A DNA stretch of 50,863 nucleotides from a virus: positions 1-50,863 of the IMG/VR virus record IMGVR_UViG_3300021061_000022; one strand, given 5' to 3'. Both the position numbers and the translations under genes were made by a program. The notes beneath the pieces were generated by a model. The model had not been told where the DNA came from. It made no database searches and worked only from the letters and a program-made list of their open reading frames with translations. Below are positions 17,376-25,859 of the stretch, piece after piece. How positions within the stretch are numbered: position 1 is the stretch's first letter; the number at the start of each line of letters is the position of its first letter.

Positions 17376-18359
17376 TCATCGTCCGCGCTCCAGTAGGTCC
17401 AAGAGGCGGGCTGAGGCGTTCGAGGGGCCGAGGTAGCGGGCGCGGTAGATGCCTAAGGCGTCGGGATCTATGGCGAATGGCTCGGGGTTGGTGACGAGCG
17501 GGCGGATGACGCCGGGCCAGTAGCCAAAGGTATACGGCATCCCGGAGTAGCACTCGTGCGTCGTCCTGTGGCCGTCCAGATGCGGCTGGGGCAGGGTCAC
17601 GGAATACTGAGGCACGCCAGCGTGCGCGAGCTCCATCGCGGCGCCTGACTGGAAGTGGACGGCGACGGTCGCTGACCGGATGAGCCGGAGAGACATCGGT
17701 GGGTAGAGTTCCGTGTCCTCGTACACGGCATCAGCGAGCTGTCTCACATACGCAGGGTCCGCGTGCTTACGCCTCGTCTTGATGACGAGGCGTAACTTCT
17801 CCGTGTCACACCAGCGCCGCAATCTCGTCAGGAGCCGGCGATAGCCCGCGTAGCGGTACACGAAGCGTCGCCAGCCGCCGACTCGGAGCTTGCACGAGAA
17901 CAGCAGGAGCATGGGTGAGGACTCACTGGGCAGCGGGCGGGCGGCGGCCCAGGCGTCGAGCTGCGTTGAGCCGAGCGTCGGGGCCCACCAGTCAGACCGA
18001 TGGCGGTCGGCCAGTCGGTATTGATAATCCGACACGTAGCATTGCAGCATCCCGGGGATGACGGGCGCATTCGCCTGCTCCCAGCTGTAATCCAAGCTCA
18101 CGAGGCGGGCTGAGGACCAGGCGCTCACATCGTGGGTGTGCAACGTGGGGCCGATGAAGGCATCGGCCGGGGACGGGTCGGTGATAACCGTCGTCGACCA
18201 CCAGCGGTGCGAGACGTCAGCGTAACGGGCCTGCTCCCCCGGCTTGCGGTCGCGGGTCCAGTACAACAGGACCGTGTGCTTGCGGCGTAACGCTTCCTCG
18301 ATGACGGGGCCGATGACCTTGAAGTAGCCGATCCGTGCCGCCGGGAAGGCGAGGATCAC
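17376..18359 (-). CDS. GT-B-like glycosyl/glycerophosphotransferase-type protein
   Basis: Encodes 327 residues from a GTG that overlaps the upstream TAG by one base. Opens VILAFPAARIGYFKVIGPVI, an N-terminal Rossmann-like unit typical of GT-B and CDP-glycerol-type transferases. The second half has LRLVIKTRRKHADPAYV, a PPMSLRLIRSATVAVHFQSG segment and GAAMELAHAGVPQYSV, which parallels the 'S-S-E-A-x-x-x-G-x-P' loop that binds nucleotide-sugar in these folds. It probably transfers a sugar or polyol phosphate to a surface polymer; exact donor unknown. Part of a three-gene glycan cluster. Confidence 0.72.
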   Translation of the reverse strand: MILAFPAARIGYFKVIGPVIEEALRRKHTVLLYWTRDRKPGEQARYADVSHRWWSTTVITDPSPADAFIGPTLHTHDVSAWSSARLVSLDYSWEQANAPVIPGMLQCYVSDYQYRLADRHRSDWWAPTLGSTQLDAWAAARPLPSESSPMLLLFSCKLRVGGWRRFVYRYAGYRRLLTRLRRWCDTEKLRLVIKTRRKHADPAYVRQLADAVYEDTELYPPMSLRLIRSATVAVHFQSGAAMELAHAGVPQYSVTLPQPHLDGHRTTHECYSGMPYTFGYWPGVIRPLVTNPEPFAIDPDALGIYRARYLGPSNASARLLDLLERGR

Positions 18360-18472
18360 TAGCGGCGCGCACGGAGGGTGCGCTTGAACGCCCTCTCTGC
18401 CACCCACACCGCCAGACACATGCCGATCAGCGAGCCGACCACGAGCCCGAGCAGCGTCATCAGTAGTGTCAT
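18359..18472 (-). CDS. 37-residue membrane peptide
   Basis: A 37-codon frame beginning MTLLMTLLGLVVGSLIGMC, one transmembrane helix, then a basic tail (ERAFKRTLRARR). ATGA-coupled upstream and overlapping the next GTG by one base. Likely inner-membrane; unknown function. Confidence 0.55.
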   Translation of the reverse strand: MTLLMTLLGLVVGSLIGMCLAVWVAERAFKRTLRARR

Positions 18473-18606
18473 CGACTCGTCAGCGCCATGATCAGCACAC
18501 CGGCCAGCCCACAAATCGCGGCGGTTATAAAGAACGCCGTCGAGAGCCTCATTCCACCTGCCTCCTCAAATGCCACCCCTATGCCGTCTCGCCGCCACTC
18601 GGTCAC
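18469..18606 (-). CDS. Small membrane protein
   Basis: A 45-codon frame from GTG (GTGA overlap). An internal ATG at about 18552 follows GGAGG and would give only the hydrophobic part (MRLSTAFFITAAICGLAGVL to the end). One transmembrane segment. Both starts are possible. Confidence 0.5.
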   Translation of the reverse strand: MTEWRRDGIGVAFEEAGGMRLSTAFFITAAICGLAGVLIMALTSR

Positions 18607-18776
18607 GACTCCCGCTTCTTGTACTTCATCCCCCGATGCGCCCGACCACCGCGGCGCCCGCCTCGGCGCAGCTTCGCCTTGATGTACTCTTGCGCCTCGG
18701 CCTTGCTCATGCCGGTGCGCTTGCACAGATTCCAGATCTGCCAGCCCTCGAAACTCGGGAAGTCGAAGGCGGCCAT
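18603..18776 (-). CDS. 57-residue basic protein
   Basis: Opens MAAFDFPSFEGWQIWNLCKR, then a helix (SKAEAQEYIKAKL) and a Gly/Arg/Lys-rich tail (RRGGRRGGRAHRG). ATG overlaps the previous stop as TGATG. The RGG-like tail suggests nucleic-acid binding. Confidence 0.6.
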   Translation of the reverse strand: MAAFDFPSFEGWQIWNLCKRTGMSKAEAQEYIKAKLRRGGRRGGRAHRGMKYKKRES

Positions 18777-18964
18777 CAGCCGTAGCTCACGATGAGTTCG
18801 GGTGAGGTCGAGGACAGGTGCGCGTCTAGGGACGCGATCGTGGCGTCCCGTTGCTCGGTCGTCGCCCCGTTCAGACCCATTCCGTCAGCCTCCACGAAGT
18901 CAATCCAACGGCAGCGGCGGGGAGCCCCAGTGTTCCAGCCGGCGCGGCGCAGCAGGGTCCTCAT
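18776..18964 (-). CDS. 62-residue hypothetical protein
   Basis: Starts MRTLLRRAGWNTGAPRRCRW, followed by DFVEADGMGLNGATTEQRD and a short amphipathic end. ATGA overlap with the fusion glycosyltransferase gene. No motif recognised. Confidence 0.62.
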   Translation of the reverse strand: MRTLLRRAGWNTGAPRRCRWIDFVEADGMGLNGATTEQRDATIASLDAHLSSTSPELIVSYG

Positions 18965-20283
18965 CGGTCCAGCACGGTCCGCATGGCGGTGATCCACGAG
19001 TCGAGACGCTGGCGCTGCGCGCGGGAGCCGGCCTTGAACGCGGACGCGCCGATCGTCCCGCCGCCGAGATGGACGTAGAACGGAATCGCCCGGTCATCGC
19101 ACGCAACGTCGCAGGTATGCCCTCTGAAGGCGGCCTGATACAGCATGGTCGCCCGCCAGCCTGGTTCAACACTCTCGGCAACGTCGTACTCCGGCATCTT
19201 CGGCGCGAGATTCATCGTGGCAAACGTAGCCACATCGAACAGCGTCCCGGCGGAATGACCGCGCTGGCTCCGCCGGCTCACGATCGCCGCCGCGGGCAAT
19301 GGCTGCCGCAGGAGATAGGACAGCCAGCCGGCGCGGACGGGCAGCGCGTCGTCGTGCATGATGAAAACGTGCGAATATCCCGCAGCCCCGGCCCGATCGA
19401 GCGCGCCGCGCAGCATGCGGAGCGCGAGCGCGTTAGCCTCGCCGCCGCGTTCGTCCCACGGCCCGTGATCCAGCAGGAACACGTCGTGGGGGACGTCCTG
19501 CGTGAACCGCGCTATCGCATCGCGGGCGAGGTTCGCCAGCGCGCGCTCGCCTGAAGACGGGATCAGGATGGCGACACGCCTCGCCGCGGCCTTGATTTGC
19601 AGCGCCTCCAGCATGGCCGTAAGCGTGTCGTTCATCGCCACGTCGCACGCGCGGCCGGCAGCCGCAGCGGCCCTGGCGGCCGTCCCGAAGGATGCAGAGG
19701 TCGCGGCCGTGGCCGCGGCCGACGTGACGGCGGCGTTAATGGCCATGAAGACGGCGAGGGCGGGGTCAGGCGAGGTGACCACGTTCGCCGCCGCGATGGC
19801 CGCGTGAGCGGTTGCCGACCAGTAGCGTTCATAAAACGTCCTCCGTGCGGCCCACGCTCCGTGGGCCGCCGCGTCGAGATCCACCCGACTAGCCTCGCCA
19901 TGCCGGTACGCCTCCGCGGCCCGCAACACCTCATACGCGCGTCGGTCCACCGTGAGGCCGCGCGCCGCAGCCCGGTCCAGCGCCTGCGTCCCCACCACCA
20001 GCGCGAACGCGCGCAGCGTATCCGTGCAGTCGGCGGCCCAGAGCACCCGGCGCTCGCTCGCGCACACCTTGTCCTCGTCGCGCTCGATCGCCCCTGACAG
20101 TTCCACGCGGGACACGACGCACGGCATTCCGGGCGGCGCATAGCGCAGCGCATCCAGGGCGCGCTCGCTGGCGTGTAGACCGCGCGCGCCCAAGGCTAGG
20201 GGCGGCAGCACGGTGTACGTAGCGACGTCGAGCGGCTGGCCATCGCGGAGTTTCCAGTTCGCGGCGAAATGCCAGCCGATCAT
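18961..20283 (-). CDS. Fusion: phage GLHAS-type domain plus GT-A-like glycosyltransferase
   Basis: Encodes 440 residues. Residues 1-150 resemble a phage-restricted domain (WHFAANWKLRDGQPL ... ARGLHASERALDALRYAP ... VSRVELSGAI ... ASERRVLWAADCT), close in style to DUF7666-like proteins. An Ala-rich helical linker (about 150-230) follows. Residues 235-440 look like a GT-A family 2-type transferase: VAILIPSSGERALANLARDA, a helix, HVFIMHDDALPVRAGWLSYL with HDD in the DxD position, and a late GYxx-like acceptor loop. ATGA-coupled to the GT4 gene upstream. I infer a sugar transfer to host surface glycan. The fusion is unusual. Confidence 0.77.
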   Translation of the reverse strand: MIGWHFAANWKLRDGQPLDVATYTVLPPLALGARGLHASERALDALRYAPPGMPCVVSRVELSGAIERDEDKVCASERRVLWAADCTDTLRAFALVVGTQALDRAAARGLTVDRRAYEVLRAAEAYRHGEASRVDLDAAAHGAWAARRTFYERYWSATAHAAIAAANVVTSPDPALAVFMAINAAVTSAAATAATSASFGTAARAAAAAGRACDVAMNDTLTAMLEALQIKAAARRVAILIPSSGERALANLARDAIARFTQDVPHDVFLLDHGPWDERGGEANALALRMLRGALDRAGAAGYSHVFIMHDDALPVRAGWLSYLLRQPLPAAAIVSRRSQRGHSAGTLFDVATFATMNLAPKMPEYDVAESVEPGWRATMLYQAAFRGHTCDVACDDRAIPFYVHLGGGTIGASAFKAGSRAQRQRLDSWITAMRTVLDR

Positions 20284-21353
20284 CCGACGAGCTCCGTGTA
20301 GACCGCCATCGTCCCGCGCACGCACCGCTCCCACCGGAAGTGGCGGTCGATCCGCTCGCGGGCCGCCTCGCCGAACAGGCGCCGCACCGGAGCGTGGTCG
20401 ATCAGGAGTCGCAGCGCACGCACATAGTCGTCCTTCGTCCGGCAGACGAATCCCGCGTCGCCGACGAGCTCCGGTAGTGACCCCGCGTCCGAGGTCACAA
20501 CCGGCAGCCCGGAGGACATGGCTTCCCCGACCGCTAGGCCGAAACCCTCCATCGACGACGGGAACACGAAGATGTCCGCGCGCTGATACCACGCCGGCTT
20601 GTCCGCCTCCGGGATGTACCCGCTGCACGAGAAACCTTGCGCCTCGAGCATGGCGCGGTCCGGGCCGTCGCCCGCGATCACGAGCGACGCGCTCGGGCGC
20701 TCGACCGCGCGCCACACGTCGAGAAGCAGGCCTAGGTTCTTTCTCGGCTTCAACCCGCCGAGGAACAGGACGCGGACTTTTCCGTCATGCGGGACCTGCC
20801 GCGGCGTGAAGCGGCGATCGATCCCGTAAGGAACGACCCGCACGTGATCCGTCCTGAACCCTTCCGCCGCCATCTGGCGCCGAGCGAACTCGCTGCCGAC
20901 GATCACCCGGTCCACCAAGCGGACGACTTGCCGCTCGACCGGCCACGGCCCCGCGTCAAGGTGGTGGTGATGGGCCACGATGGGAACGGACCACCCATAG
21001 CGGCGCTTCGCGATCAAGCACGCCGGCCCCATGAACTTGAGGCTGTGGACGCGGAGCACATCGAACGGGTGGAGATGCCGGAGGGCCCGGGGAACGACGA
21101 ACGGGGCGATCGTCCAGTGCAGTCCTCGCGCAACCGGAAATCGCGTCACAGCCCGCCCGAGGCTCGCAGGATGCGGCTTCCCGTGGGCCAGCAGGATCTT
21201 CTGCTGGGCTGGCAGGCGCGTCAGCAGATCGACCTCGTAGCGTTCGCCCCCGGAGTTCGTTTCCGGGTCGAGACCACAGTGGGGGGAACAGACGACTATC
21301 AGGGGGGTCCCTCCGGCCGTCCGCCGCGCCCGTCGTCGTCTTCGTCCGTCCAC
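20280..21353 (-). CDS. GT4-family glycosyltransferase
   Basis: Encodes up to 357 residues. Classic GT-B retaining transferase signs: SPHCGLDPETNSGGERYEVD at the acceptor side, VIVGSEFARRQMA, VVPYGIDRRFTP, LFLGGLKPRKNLGLLLDV, VIAGDGPDRAML, and the donor EGFGLAVGEAMSSGLPVV (E269 and E277) binding nucleotide-sugar. GT4 enzymes build LPS and capsule chains at the cytoplasmic face. Start is uncertain: GTG at 21353 lacks a ribosome site, while a CTG at 21302 has GGAGGG six bases upstream and a four-base CTGA overlap. Middle gene of the glycan cluster. Confidence 0.88.
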   Translation of the reverse strand: MDGRRRRRARRTAGGTPLIVVCSPHCGLDPETNSGGERYEVDLLTRLPAQQKILLAHGKPHPASLGRAVTRFPVARGLHWTIAPFVVPRALRHLHPFDVLRVHSLKFMGPACLIAKRRYGWSVPIVAHHHHLDAGPWPVERQVVRLVDRVIVGSEFARRQMAAEGFRTDHVRVVPYGIDRRFTPRQVPHDGKVRVLFLGGLKPRKNLGLLLDVWRAVERPSASLVIAGDGPDRAMLEAQGFSCSGYIPEADKPAWYQRADIFVFPSSMEGFGLAVGEAMSSGLPVVTSDAGSLPELVGDAGFVCRTKDDYVRALRLLIDHAPVRRLFGEAARERIDRHFRWERCVRGTMAVYTELVG

Positions 21354-23878: not shown

Positions 23879-24305
23879 AGTTCGCGTCTCCCTCGGGTGA
23901 GTTGTTCACTTCGCGCCGCCGGTCCCCGCCGAGGCGGCCACGCCCGTCCTGCACCCCGTACAGCCGGAGGAGCCGCACGAAGTACGTGCGCTGCATCCCG
24001 AGCGATGCGGCCGCGCGCGTGCGATGCCCGTCGTGCGCGGCCAGCGCCTCCGCCAGCAGATCGCGCTTGAAGGCGAGCACCCGGCGCTCGTAGGCGTTGA
24101 TACCAGGCGTCATCAGCGTGATCCGGGGCGTCTGGCGGCGACGAGCTCCGCCGGCCGGCACAGACGCCGCGTGTGGACTCGCCGGGCTGGCGTGGAGGCC
24201 ACTTTTCTTCCGGCCCAATACCCTACTGGCGGGGTCGGGCCGATCGCCCGCCACAGCGCCTTGTAGCTCGTCACACGCGGGGACGGTGGATAACTGGCGT
24301 CTCAC
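23871..24305 (-). CDS. Fis-type helix-turn-helix protein
   Basis: Encodes 144 residues from GTG (GTGA overlap with the methyltransferase stop). The first 75 residues are low in structure; residues 82-125 (AFKRDLLAEALAAHDGHRTRA then ASLGMQRTYFVRLLRLYGV) match the Fis/NtrC C-terminal HTH (HTH_8). It would bind DNA as a dimer. Without an ATPase domain it probably acts as a small regulator or architectural protein. Confidence 0.82.
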   Translation of the reverse strand: MRRQLSTVPACDELQGAVAGDRPDPASRVLGRKKSGLHASPASPHAASVPAGGARRRQTPRITLMTPGINAYERRVLAFKRDLLAEALAAHDGHRTRAAASLGMQRTYFVRLLRLYGVQDGRGRLGGDRRREVNNSPEGDANYA

Positions 24306-25027
24306 GGGCGTCGCTCCGCGACGGGCTCGCCCGCGAACAGGACTTCTTGGCGAAGTCTTTTGACCGCGATCTCGCAGTACCTCGGCTCGATCTCGATCCC
24401 GATGGCGCGCCGGCCGAGGTTCTTGGCGGCGTGCAGGGTCGTGCCCGACCCCGAGAAGGGCTCTAGGATCAGATCGCCGGGACCGCTTTCGCGGATGATC
24501 CGCTCGATGAGCGCAATCGGCTTTTCGGCGGCGTGGCCGTTGGGGCGGGCACTCGCCCACTGAGCGCGCCAGATGTCTGGAAGGCCACGGTTCGGAATCG
24601 CGAAGCCGTCATGCGCGAACAGCGCGACGAGTTCATACGATGGCCGCAGCCCCTGCACGCCGCCGGGGCCGATCCACTCCTTGTCCCACACGAGCAGAGA
24701 TTCGATCGGCCACAGCGCCTCGTAGGCGGCTCTGGCGAGGATCGGGAAGCTGCGCCACGAGTTGAAGATCCACGCCGCGCCTTGCCGTGATTGCGTGAGA
24801 CGGTACGCCTCACGAATCCATGAGGCGTACCACCGCGCCCCGTTCATCAGGTCGCCCCACCCGCCCGCCTTGCCCTCCTGCGCGGTCGATGCGAGGCCGA
24901 AGGAGTACGGCGGGTCCGTGACGACCAGATCGACGCTCGGCAGTAACGGCATGATGTCGAGCGCGTCCCCGCAGTAGAGCGTGATCCCCGGCTCCTCGTG
25001 AAACAGGTAGTCGCGGAGGGACTTCAT
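24302..25027 (-). CDS. DNA methyltransferase (N6-adenine or N4-cytosine, beta class)
   Basis: Encodes 241 residues. Motif IV DPPY lies at 38-41 (VVTDPPYSFG), after LYCGDALDIMPLLP. The S-adenosylmethionine motif I, FSGSGTT (191-197), comes late, which is the beta order. The short target-recognition region lies between (about 60-170). ATGA-coupled to the GcrA-like gene. Likely protects phage DNA from restriction or alters host regulation; without a neighbouring matching nuclease it looks solitary. Confidence 0.92.
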   Translation of the reverse strand: MKSLRDYLFHEEPGITLYCGDALDIMPLLPSVDLVVTDPPYSFGLASTAQEGKAGGWGDLMNGARWYASWIREAYRLTQSRQGAAWIFNSWRSFPILARAAYEALWPIESLLVWDKEWIGPGGVQGLRPSYELVALFAHDGFAIPNRGLPDIWRAQWASARPNGHAAEKPIALIERIIRESGPGDLILEPFSGSGTTLHAAKNLGRRAIGIEIEPRYCEIAVKRLRQEVLFAGEPVAERRP

Positions 25028-25452
25028 GCGAACTGCGTCCGCTTGAAGCTGCCCGCCGCCGTCAGCGAGTGCGCCTCTTTCGCCAGCAGGCTCGGCGTGC
25101 GGGCGCCGCCGGCTCCGCGCCGCGAGCGCATCTCGATCCCGTCCTTCCGCATCCGCGAGACCTGGTGATCGAGCGTCCCCGGCCGCACCTTGAAGTCCCG
25201 GCAGATCGCCGCCACCGCGTCGCCGGCATTCCACCGCTGCGCCAGCAGCGCCGTCCGCTCCTCGGTCCACACGACGCGCCGCCCGATCTTCGCCACCGGC
25301 CCGAGCGGCACCGCCGCCGCAGGCGGCGCCCAGGAAGGCGTGAGGACCGCCGTGACGCTCTTGCCGTGGATGCAACTGACCACCCGGACCTGCTGGTAGC
25401 CGTCCGAGTCCGTCGCTTCGCGGATGATTCCGCAGGCCATGACGTCGTGCAT
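25024..25452 (-). CDS. GcrA-like HTH regulator
   Basis: Encodes 142 residues. Residues 58-105 (VVWTEERTALLAQRWNAGDA followed by VAAICRDFKVRPGTLDHQV) match a GcrA-type opening: W-T-x-E-R, then a helix-turn-helix and a basic patch (RMRKDGIEMRSRR). GcrA of Alphaproteobacteria reads DNA methylation with sigma-70. The gene is directly upstream of, and coupled to, a DNA methyltransferase. The HTH could also be of a generic resolvase type. Confidence 0.72.
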   Translation of the reverse strand: MHDVMACGIIREATDSDGYQQVRVVSCIHGKSVTAVLTPSWAPPAAAVPLGPVAKIGRRVVWTEERTALLAQRWNAGDAVAAICRDFKVRPGTLDHQVSRMRKDGIEMRSRRGAGGARTPSLLAKEAHSLTAAGSFKRTQFA

Positions 25453-25859
25453 CAGGCGCCCTCGACGGGCGAAGAAACGGCGGCGTGTTCACGCTGTGCG
25501 TCGATCAGGCGCTTGGCTTCGTCGAGCGCGGCTTTCGTGCCGACCAGCCAGCCGCCCGCCTCGCGGTACACCATGCAGGCGTGGCCCGCCGGCATATCCG
25601 CGAGCACGATGCCGTCGCCGCGCCAGAACACGGCGTTGCCGAGTCTGAGCAGCGTCGGCTTCGCGTCCTCGCCGTCGTCGTCCTCGTCGAAGCCGGCCGC
25701 CTTAACCAGCGCCGAGTAGATCGCATTCCCGAGCTTCGTGCGCTCCTGCTCGGCTTCCGCGCGCGCCTCGGGACCGAGCCACGAGAACCACTGCGTGACA
25801 ATGTCGAGCGCCGTGTCGTGCAGCGAGTCCATCGCCGCGCGCGCCATCGCGTCGTTCAT
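25452..25859 (-). CDS. Hypothetical protein, acidic middle
   Basis: Encodes 135 residues. GGAGGG eight bases before the ATG at 25859 decides the start; a GTG at 25919 with a GTGA overlap is an alternative. N-terminal helices with WFSWLGPEARAEAEQER, an acidic stretch FDEDDDGEDA, then a strand-rich end (AHACMVYREAGGWLVGTKAAL). Ends SPVEGA from the hairpin repeat. Unknown. Confidence 0.7.
   Translation of the reverse strand: MNDAMARAAMDSLHDTALDIVTQWFSWLGPEARAEAEQERTKLGNAIYSALVKAAGFDEDDDGEDAKPTLLRLGNAVFWRGDGIVLADMPAGHACMVYREAGGWLVGTKAALDEAKRLIDAQREHAAVSSPVEGA
25455..25471. repeat. Early-operon hairpin repeat
   Basis: Copy of GGCGCCCTCGACGGGCG at the extreme 3' end of the 135-residue gene, three bases before its stop. 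Confidence 0.8.

Follow-up and report, generated by a model that had tools for sequence, protein, structure and literature searches.

The window analysed here, IMG/VR virus record IMGVR_UViG_3300021061_000022, is a whole record of 50,863 bases, with a GC content of about 68%. Scans of the Pfam and PHROGs type recognise, among its genes, an SU10-like portal, a terminase-like large subunit, a major-head-like protein, a tyrosine integrase and tail proteins: this combination points to a temperate tailed phage, or a prophage, as the probable source. The ORF under study lies on the minus strand at positions 18961–20283, runs from an ATG at 20283 to a stop at 18961–18963, and encodes a protein of 440 aa. 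Three parts follow one another along it, all on the same strand: a DUF7666 beta-domain (residues 1–86; 20026–20283), an alanine-rich helical repeat domain (residues 87–231; 19591–20025) and a probable GT-A, GT2-like, glycosyltransferase domain (residues 234–440; 18964–19584). The last one carries, within GYSHVFIMHDDALPVRAGW, an HDD motif (residues 310–312; 19348–19356, minus strand), predicted to be a DxD-type metal and nucleotide-sugar site.

Neighbouring genes are tightly packed around this fusion ORF. On its 5' side, a GT4-type glycosyltransferase gene (20280–21353, minus strand; Pfam Glycos_transf_1, E 7e-29) ends within an ATGA, where its stop overlaps the start of the fusion ORF; at the other end, the stop of the fusion ORF overlaps, again in an ATGA, the start of a small downstream ORF of 62 aa, beginning with MRTLLRRAGW (18776–18964, minus strand). 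ATGA couplings at both ends are a tight phage operon arrangement. The 62-aa ORF is in turn overlapped by a second small ORF, of about 57 aa (18603–18776, minus strand), the overlaps being of the ATGA or TGATG type. A gene of 347 aa, containing FQSGAAMELAHAGVPQYSVTLP, is found at 17376–18419 on the minus strand: its product looks GT-B-like by eye, has no match in Pfam, PHROGs, NCBIfam or PADLOC, and is a possible third glycosyltransferase of the cluster.

The fusion ORF is real, and constitutes one 440-aa frame. Neither a stop nor a frame change is present between the two halves, and GC3 stays between 0.79 and 0.89 in every segment tested along the ORF, including the join and the halves on either side of it: a single frame open throughout, with GC3 this uniform, gives no sign of a frameshift at the join. 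The sequence-only reading had placed a fusion gene at these positions, while considering that a missed frameshift in a linker might have joined two genes; the gene is borne out, the frameshift is not. A frameshift or two-gene interpretation was rejected on these grounds, and also because, on inspection, the internal ATG at residue 223 is not preceded by any evident ribosome-binding site. A longer ORF of 584 aa, starting from a GTG at 20715, was discarded as well, since it would overlap the GT4 gene, and relatives begin at the WHF strand. The two units meet at about residues 231–234, in a short join without a dedicated linker. No close relatives of the whole 440-aa protein were found in the phage, viral-contig and genome-contig collections, and the protein matches no PADLOC profile of known anti-phage defence.

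When the two halves are searched separately, the N-terminal one matches PF24703 (DUF7666) with an E-value of 7.8e-7 and a score of 29.9 bits, against a Pfam cut-off of 27 (33.2 bits in the genome search). It is, as had been suspected, a common stand-alone phage domain. According to column conservation, the family core, formed by G[LF]HA, a D-K pair and R78, is fully kept in the fusion protein: GLHAS occupies residues 35–39, the nearly invariant H37, D71, K72 and R78 are all present, and the conserved WHF and DxK are found in the domain. At position 32 a Cys, present in 95% of the aligned relatives, is replaced by Gly; this Cys is a common feature of the relatives seen here, not a requirement of the Pfam model. 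A DNA motif search for GLHAS...DALxYA returned 106 virus stretches, and 68 loci, with many sharing a contig, came from an alignment-guided search; PF24703 is matched by all of the 87 aligned relatives. Where complete, relatives are mostly 150–300 aa long, and consist of the DUF7666 beta-domain, followed by a long alanine-rich stretch and by a terminal N/Q..L..ML motif.

The same organization is found in residues 1–231 of the fusion protein. Eleven relatives were aligned: they share with it the domain, the helical repeat and the terminal motif, with identities of 32–47%, and stop after this motif, whereas the fusion protein continues into the GT-A-like domain. An AlphaFold2 model of the N-terminal unit, obtained from 87 sequences, reaches a pLDDT of 91.6 and a pTM of 0.87 (pLDDT 94–97 per block in the beta-domain), with beta strands within residues 2–85 and six helices in residues 87–237. 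The alanine-rich stretch, ending in the N..L..ML motif of the family, is not a linker: it belongs to the stand-alone protein, and is predicted to fold as a helical repeat; residues 1 to about 231, by comparison with the relatives, make up a complete stand-alone phage protein. The division into a domain of residues 1–150 and an Ala-rich linker, as originally drawn, does not stand, the alanine-rich stretch being common to the relatives. A PDB fold search with the N-terminal model returned mostly helical proteins. For the helical part, SsdAI was found (7jtu_B; Z 9.7, rmsd 4.0, 149 residues aligned), with a Z that is common by chance among helical bundles, and Imm5_like is matched by 7 of the 87 relatives. 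The likeness to SsdAI and to Imm5-like immunity proteins lies in the helical domain: SsdAI is exclusively alpha-helical (PMC7901873), unlike the N-terminal unit of the fusion protein, which includes a beta-domain.

DUF7666 is mostly viral, not phage-only as first proposed. The BFVD viral structure models that match with high probability belong to DUF7666 proteins, from giant viruses as well as phages; rare copies are found in prokaryotic MAG contigs. Several of the BFVD matches have names referring to repeats (pentapeptide; more weakly, ankyrin or DUF4116). Two canonical phage DUF7666 proteins (L122:2893-3930 and L002:4028-4777) feature, where others have alanine-rich helices, solenoid-like tandem repeats (GDNSASSAT and DSAQLAASG). 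Names and solenoid-like tails, taken together, suggest that DUF7666 may be an N-terminal module, or cap, on varied repeat scaffolds. In two further cases (L034:56-3272 and L211:1-2281), three or four adjacent DUF7666 genes are found in tandem in one phage, with different alanine-rich tails, which suggests repeated duplication and rapid tail change.

Fusion of a DUF7666 protein with a probable GT-A domain, for which the sequence-only reading knew of no described case, is supported, and proved to be rare. In a survey of 199 DUF7666 ORFs, 153 of which remained after removing repeats, no other added globular domain was found among the 153 distinct ORFs, some of them cut by contig ends; when 377 genomes belonging to a single phylum were searched, one more DUF7666 copy came to light, in a 282-aa frame. 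With about 150 distinct DUF7666 proteins examined, the fusion is novel but has been seen only once. Stand-alone DUF7666 genes adjoin genes of recombination and replication (ERF, RecT, PDDEXK, DUF2800, helicases), and the 25 commonest neighbour families listed for them include no glycosyltransferase; DUF7666 within a glycosyltransferase cluster was seen only in this phage. The proposed link between the domain and glycan metabolism is weak, the neighbours of stand-alone copies giving no such connection.

The fusion gene probably arose when two neighbouring genes of the same direction were joined in frame: the DUF7666 part ends where its relatives end, and the first beta strand of the glycosyltransferase begins about ten residues on. 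In the resulting protein, DUF7666 and its helices would serve as a non-catalytic binding or docking module. The main rival to this view is a neutral joining of two unrelated phage proteins, where a stop codon was lost in the phage (or in the assembly), the halves work independently, and DUF7666 plays no part in glycosylation. A single instance among about 150 distinct proteins is compatible with such an event, as are the shortness of the join and the recombination genes found around stand-alone relatives. Yet the residues H37, D71, K72 and R78 have been retained, the frame is unbroken, its GC3 normal throughout, and the coupling of the ORF to the GT4 gene fits co-expression with a glycosyltransferase: neutral joining is regarded as rather unlikely.

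The C-terminal domain, residues 234–440, is not recognised by standard searches: no match was found in Pfam (none at E<=10, when the domain was searched alone), in NCBIfam or in PDB sequence searches. Since the cut-off of Glycos_transf_2 (PF00535) is not reached, the domain is classed as GT2-like, and not as a PF00535 member. PHROGs reports a weak match to a glycosyltransferase (phrog_2456; E 0.0049, residues 300–327). Within the 377 genomes of one phylum, the best match shows 34% identity over domain residues 3–107 (105 residues; E 1.3e-6 per genome): the target protein is itself a Glycos_transf_2 (E 2.6e-15), and the alignment holds its register from beta-1 up to and including the DD motif. 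A near-reversed decoy, with a similarity of 0.95 to the exactly reversed sequence, reached, in the same genomes, a best E of 1.7e-3.

When tested against a GT2 profile, built from 28 relatives of the matched GT2 protein and chosen without the motif, the domain scores 9.9 bits, above all of 1847 scored shuffles and, with a single exception, above the 934 scored shuffles that keep the motif; masking the motif makes the profile support for the domain vanish. No match was obtained with an intended canonical GT2 profile (-1.3 bits, within shuffles), built from 26 roughly selected sequences, at least one of which is in the wrong frame. A profile derived from motif-selected phage glycosyltransferases gave 33 bits, due only to the motif, and was discounted. 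The rare DDA[LF]P...GW motif is common to the domain and to phage GT-A enzymes: a search with this pattern returned, among other unrelated frames, phage proteins identified as GT-A through Pfam or close similarity. A search with the HDD pattern returned mostly non-glycosyltransferase reading frames. Close relatives of the glycosyltransferase half alone are absent from phages and plasmids, where just short motif matches were found. A virus ORF of 558 aa (L116:2124-2804) features a GT-A-like N-terminal part, followed by a stretch which resembles, by eye, a SAM methyltransferase.

Only the N-terminal half of the homologues was used for modelling the domain, as the full-domain alignment was visibly misaligned in the C-terminal half. 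The model features a beta-alpha-beta-alpha-beta arrangement, Rossmann-like, with pLDDT 66–80 for the initial 80 residues of the modelled fragment; HDD follows strand 3 (strand 76–80), directly at the end of a core strand, where a DxD-type motif would be expected. This half alone reaches a usable confidence, the C-terminal half of the domain having a pLDDT below 50. Fold searches with this low-confidence model returned generic Rossmann folds, and the PDB search listed no clear glycosyltransferase, GtrB (5ekp) being a weak entry. GT2-type GT-A enzymes (Glycos_transf_2, phrog_2456) and the domain have in common the beta-alpha-beta-alpha-beta N-terminal half, the DD motif after strand 3 and the 105-residue match; the domain differs by HDD in place of the usual DxD or DDD, falls below Pfam detection, and has a C-terminal half too divergent to align.

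Overall, these weaker but convergent lines amount to moderate evidence, and it is quite likely that residues 234–440 are a GT-A glycosyltransferase: this identity is supported, not proven. Both halves show some similarity to the domains initially proposed, confirmed for the N-terminal one and moderate for the C-terminal one, where the HDD and the GT2 similarity hold and a Pfam or NCBIfam assignment does not follow. The domain might instead be another Rossmann-like protein, with an HDD resembling DxD by chance. Such a protein would account for the missing Pfam match, for the generic Rossmann matches of the low-confidence model, and for a profile support centred on the motif. It would not account for a 34% genome match and a phrog_2456 match which both point to glycosyltransferases, the register of the genome match being kept from beta-1 to the DD motif, nor for the score above shuffles that the domain obtains with a GT2 profile chosen independently of the motif, nor for the adjoining GT4 gene; it is considered unlikely.

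For the beta-domain, a likeness to Arr rifampin ADP-ribosyltransferases was found at the level of the fold. Residues 1–87 of the model were aligned by VIA-align to Arr structures 9iaf (Z 5.7, rmsd 3.1, 76 residues aligned) and 2hw2 (Z 4.6, rmsd 3.2, 75 residues aligned), and a phage 'Ms Rifampin ADP-ribosyl transferase' was among the Foldseek matches (prob 0.99, E 0.09). If the 2hw2 alignment, from residue 1 of the model to residue 15 of the chain, is ungapped, H5 would fall near His19, the catalytic His of Arr. Position 5 is H in 81% of the relatives and Y or W in the others, and the canonical DUF7666 protein of L122 has no His at this strand. Profile-profile comparison of Arr and DUF7666 revealed no similarity (hhalign probability 0.04%, with an Arr alignment of only 7 sequences). 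The small beta-fold is similar over residues 1–87, with no sequence-profile likeness and with proposed catalytic positions which are not invariant in DUF7666: the domain may be Arr-like in fold, as a lead only. Following this lead, DUF7666 would be a degenerate or active ADP-ribosyltransferase-like domain, carried by different repeat scaffolds and joined here to a glycosyltransferase: a dual modifying or target-directed enzyme, which could act twice on one target. Besides the fold matches and the vicinity of H5 to His19, an ADP-ribosyltransferase annotation, given by another group to a DUF7666 phage protein (PMC7354433), favours this possibility. Yet the Arr Z values are below 8, and maybe reflect just a common arrangement; together with the lack of profile similarity and the variability of H5, they make two enzymes in one quite improbable.

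Finally, glycosylation of modified phage DNA bases, as by TET-associated glycosyltransferases (TAGT), is very improbable: a phage GT-A enzyme sharing the motif (L246) has a sub-threshold TAGT match, and a DNA methyltransferase gene is found at 24302–25492 of the window, but the fusion protein itself has no TAGT match, and the scanned genes of the window include no recognisable TET/JBP or hydroxymethylase.

Somewhat better than even chances are given to the reading of the ORF as a two-part phage protein, where an entire DUF7666 helical-repeat protein is followed by a GT-A glycosyltransferase, with the in-frame origin and the docking role described above. In this two-part protein, HDD would probably hold a divalent metal and the nucleotide sugar, and the glycosyltransferase would probably work with the adjacent GT4 enzyme, perhaps also with the product of the 17376–18419 gene, to build or modify a glycan of the host surface or of the virion.

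DUF7666 proteins are common in phages: a folded helical repeat is now predicted for their alanine-rich tail, and their beta-domain may have an ADP-ribosyltransferase-like fold. As only one instance is available, the fusion cannot define the general function of DUF7666. It features, in one phage, a whole DUF7666 protein attached to a probable glycosyltransferase, and would offer a direct handle on whether the DUF7666 part alters the acceptor, the activity or the location of the enzyme.
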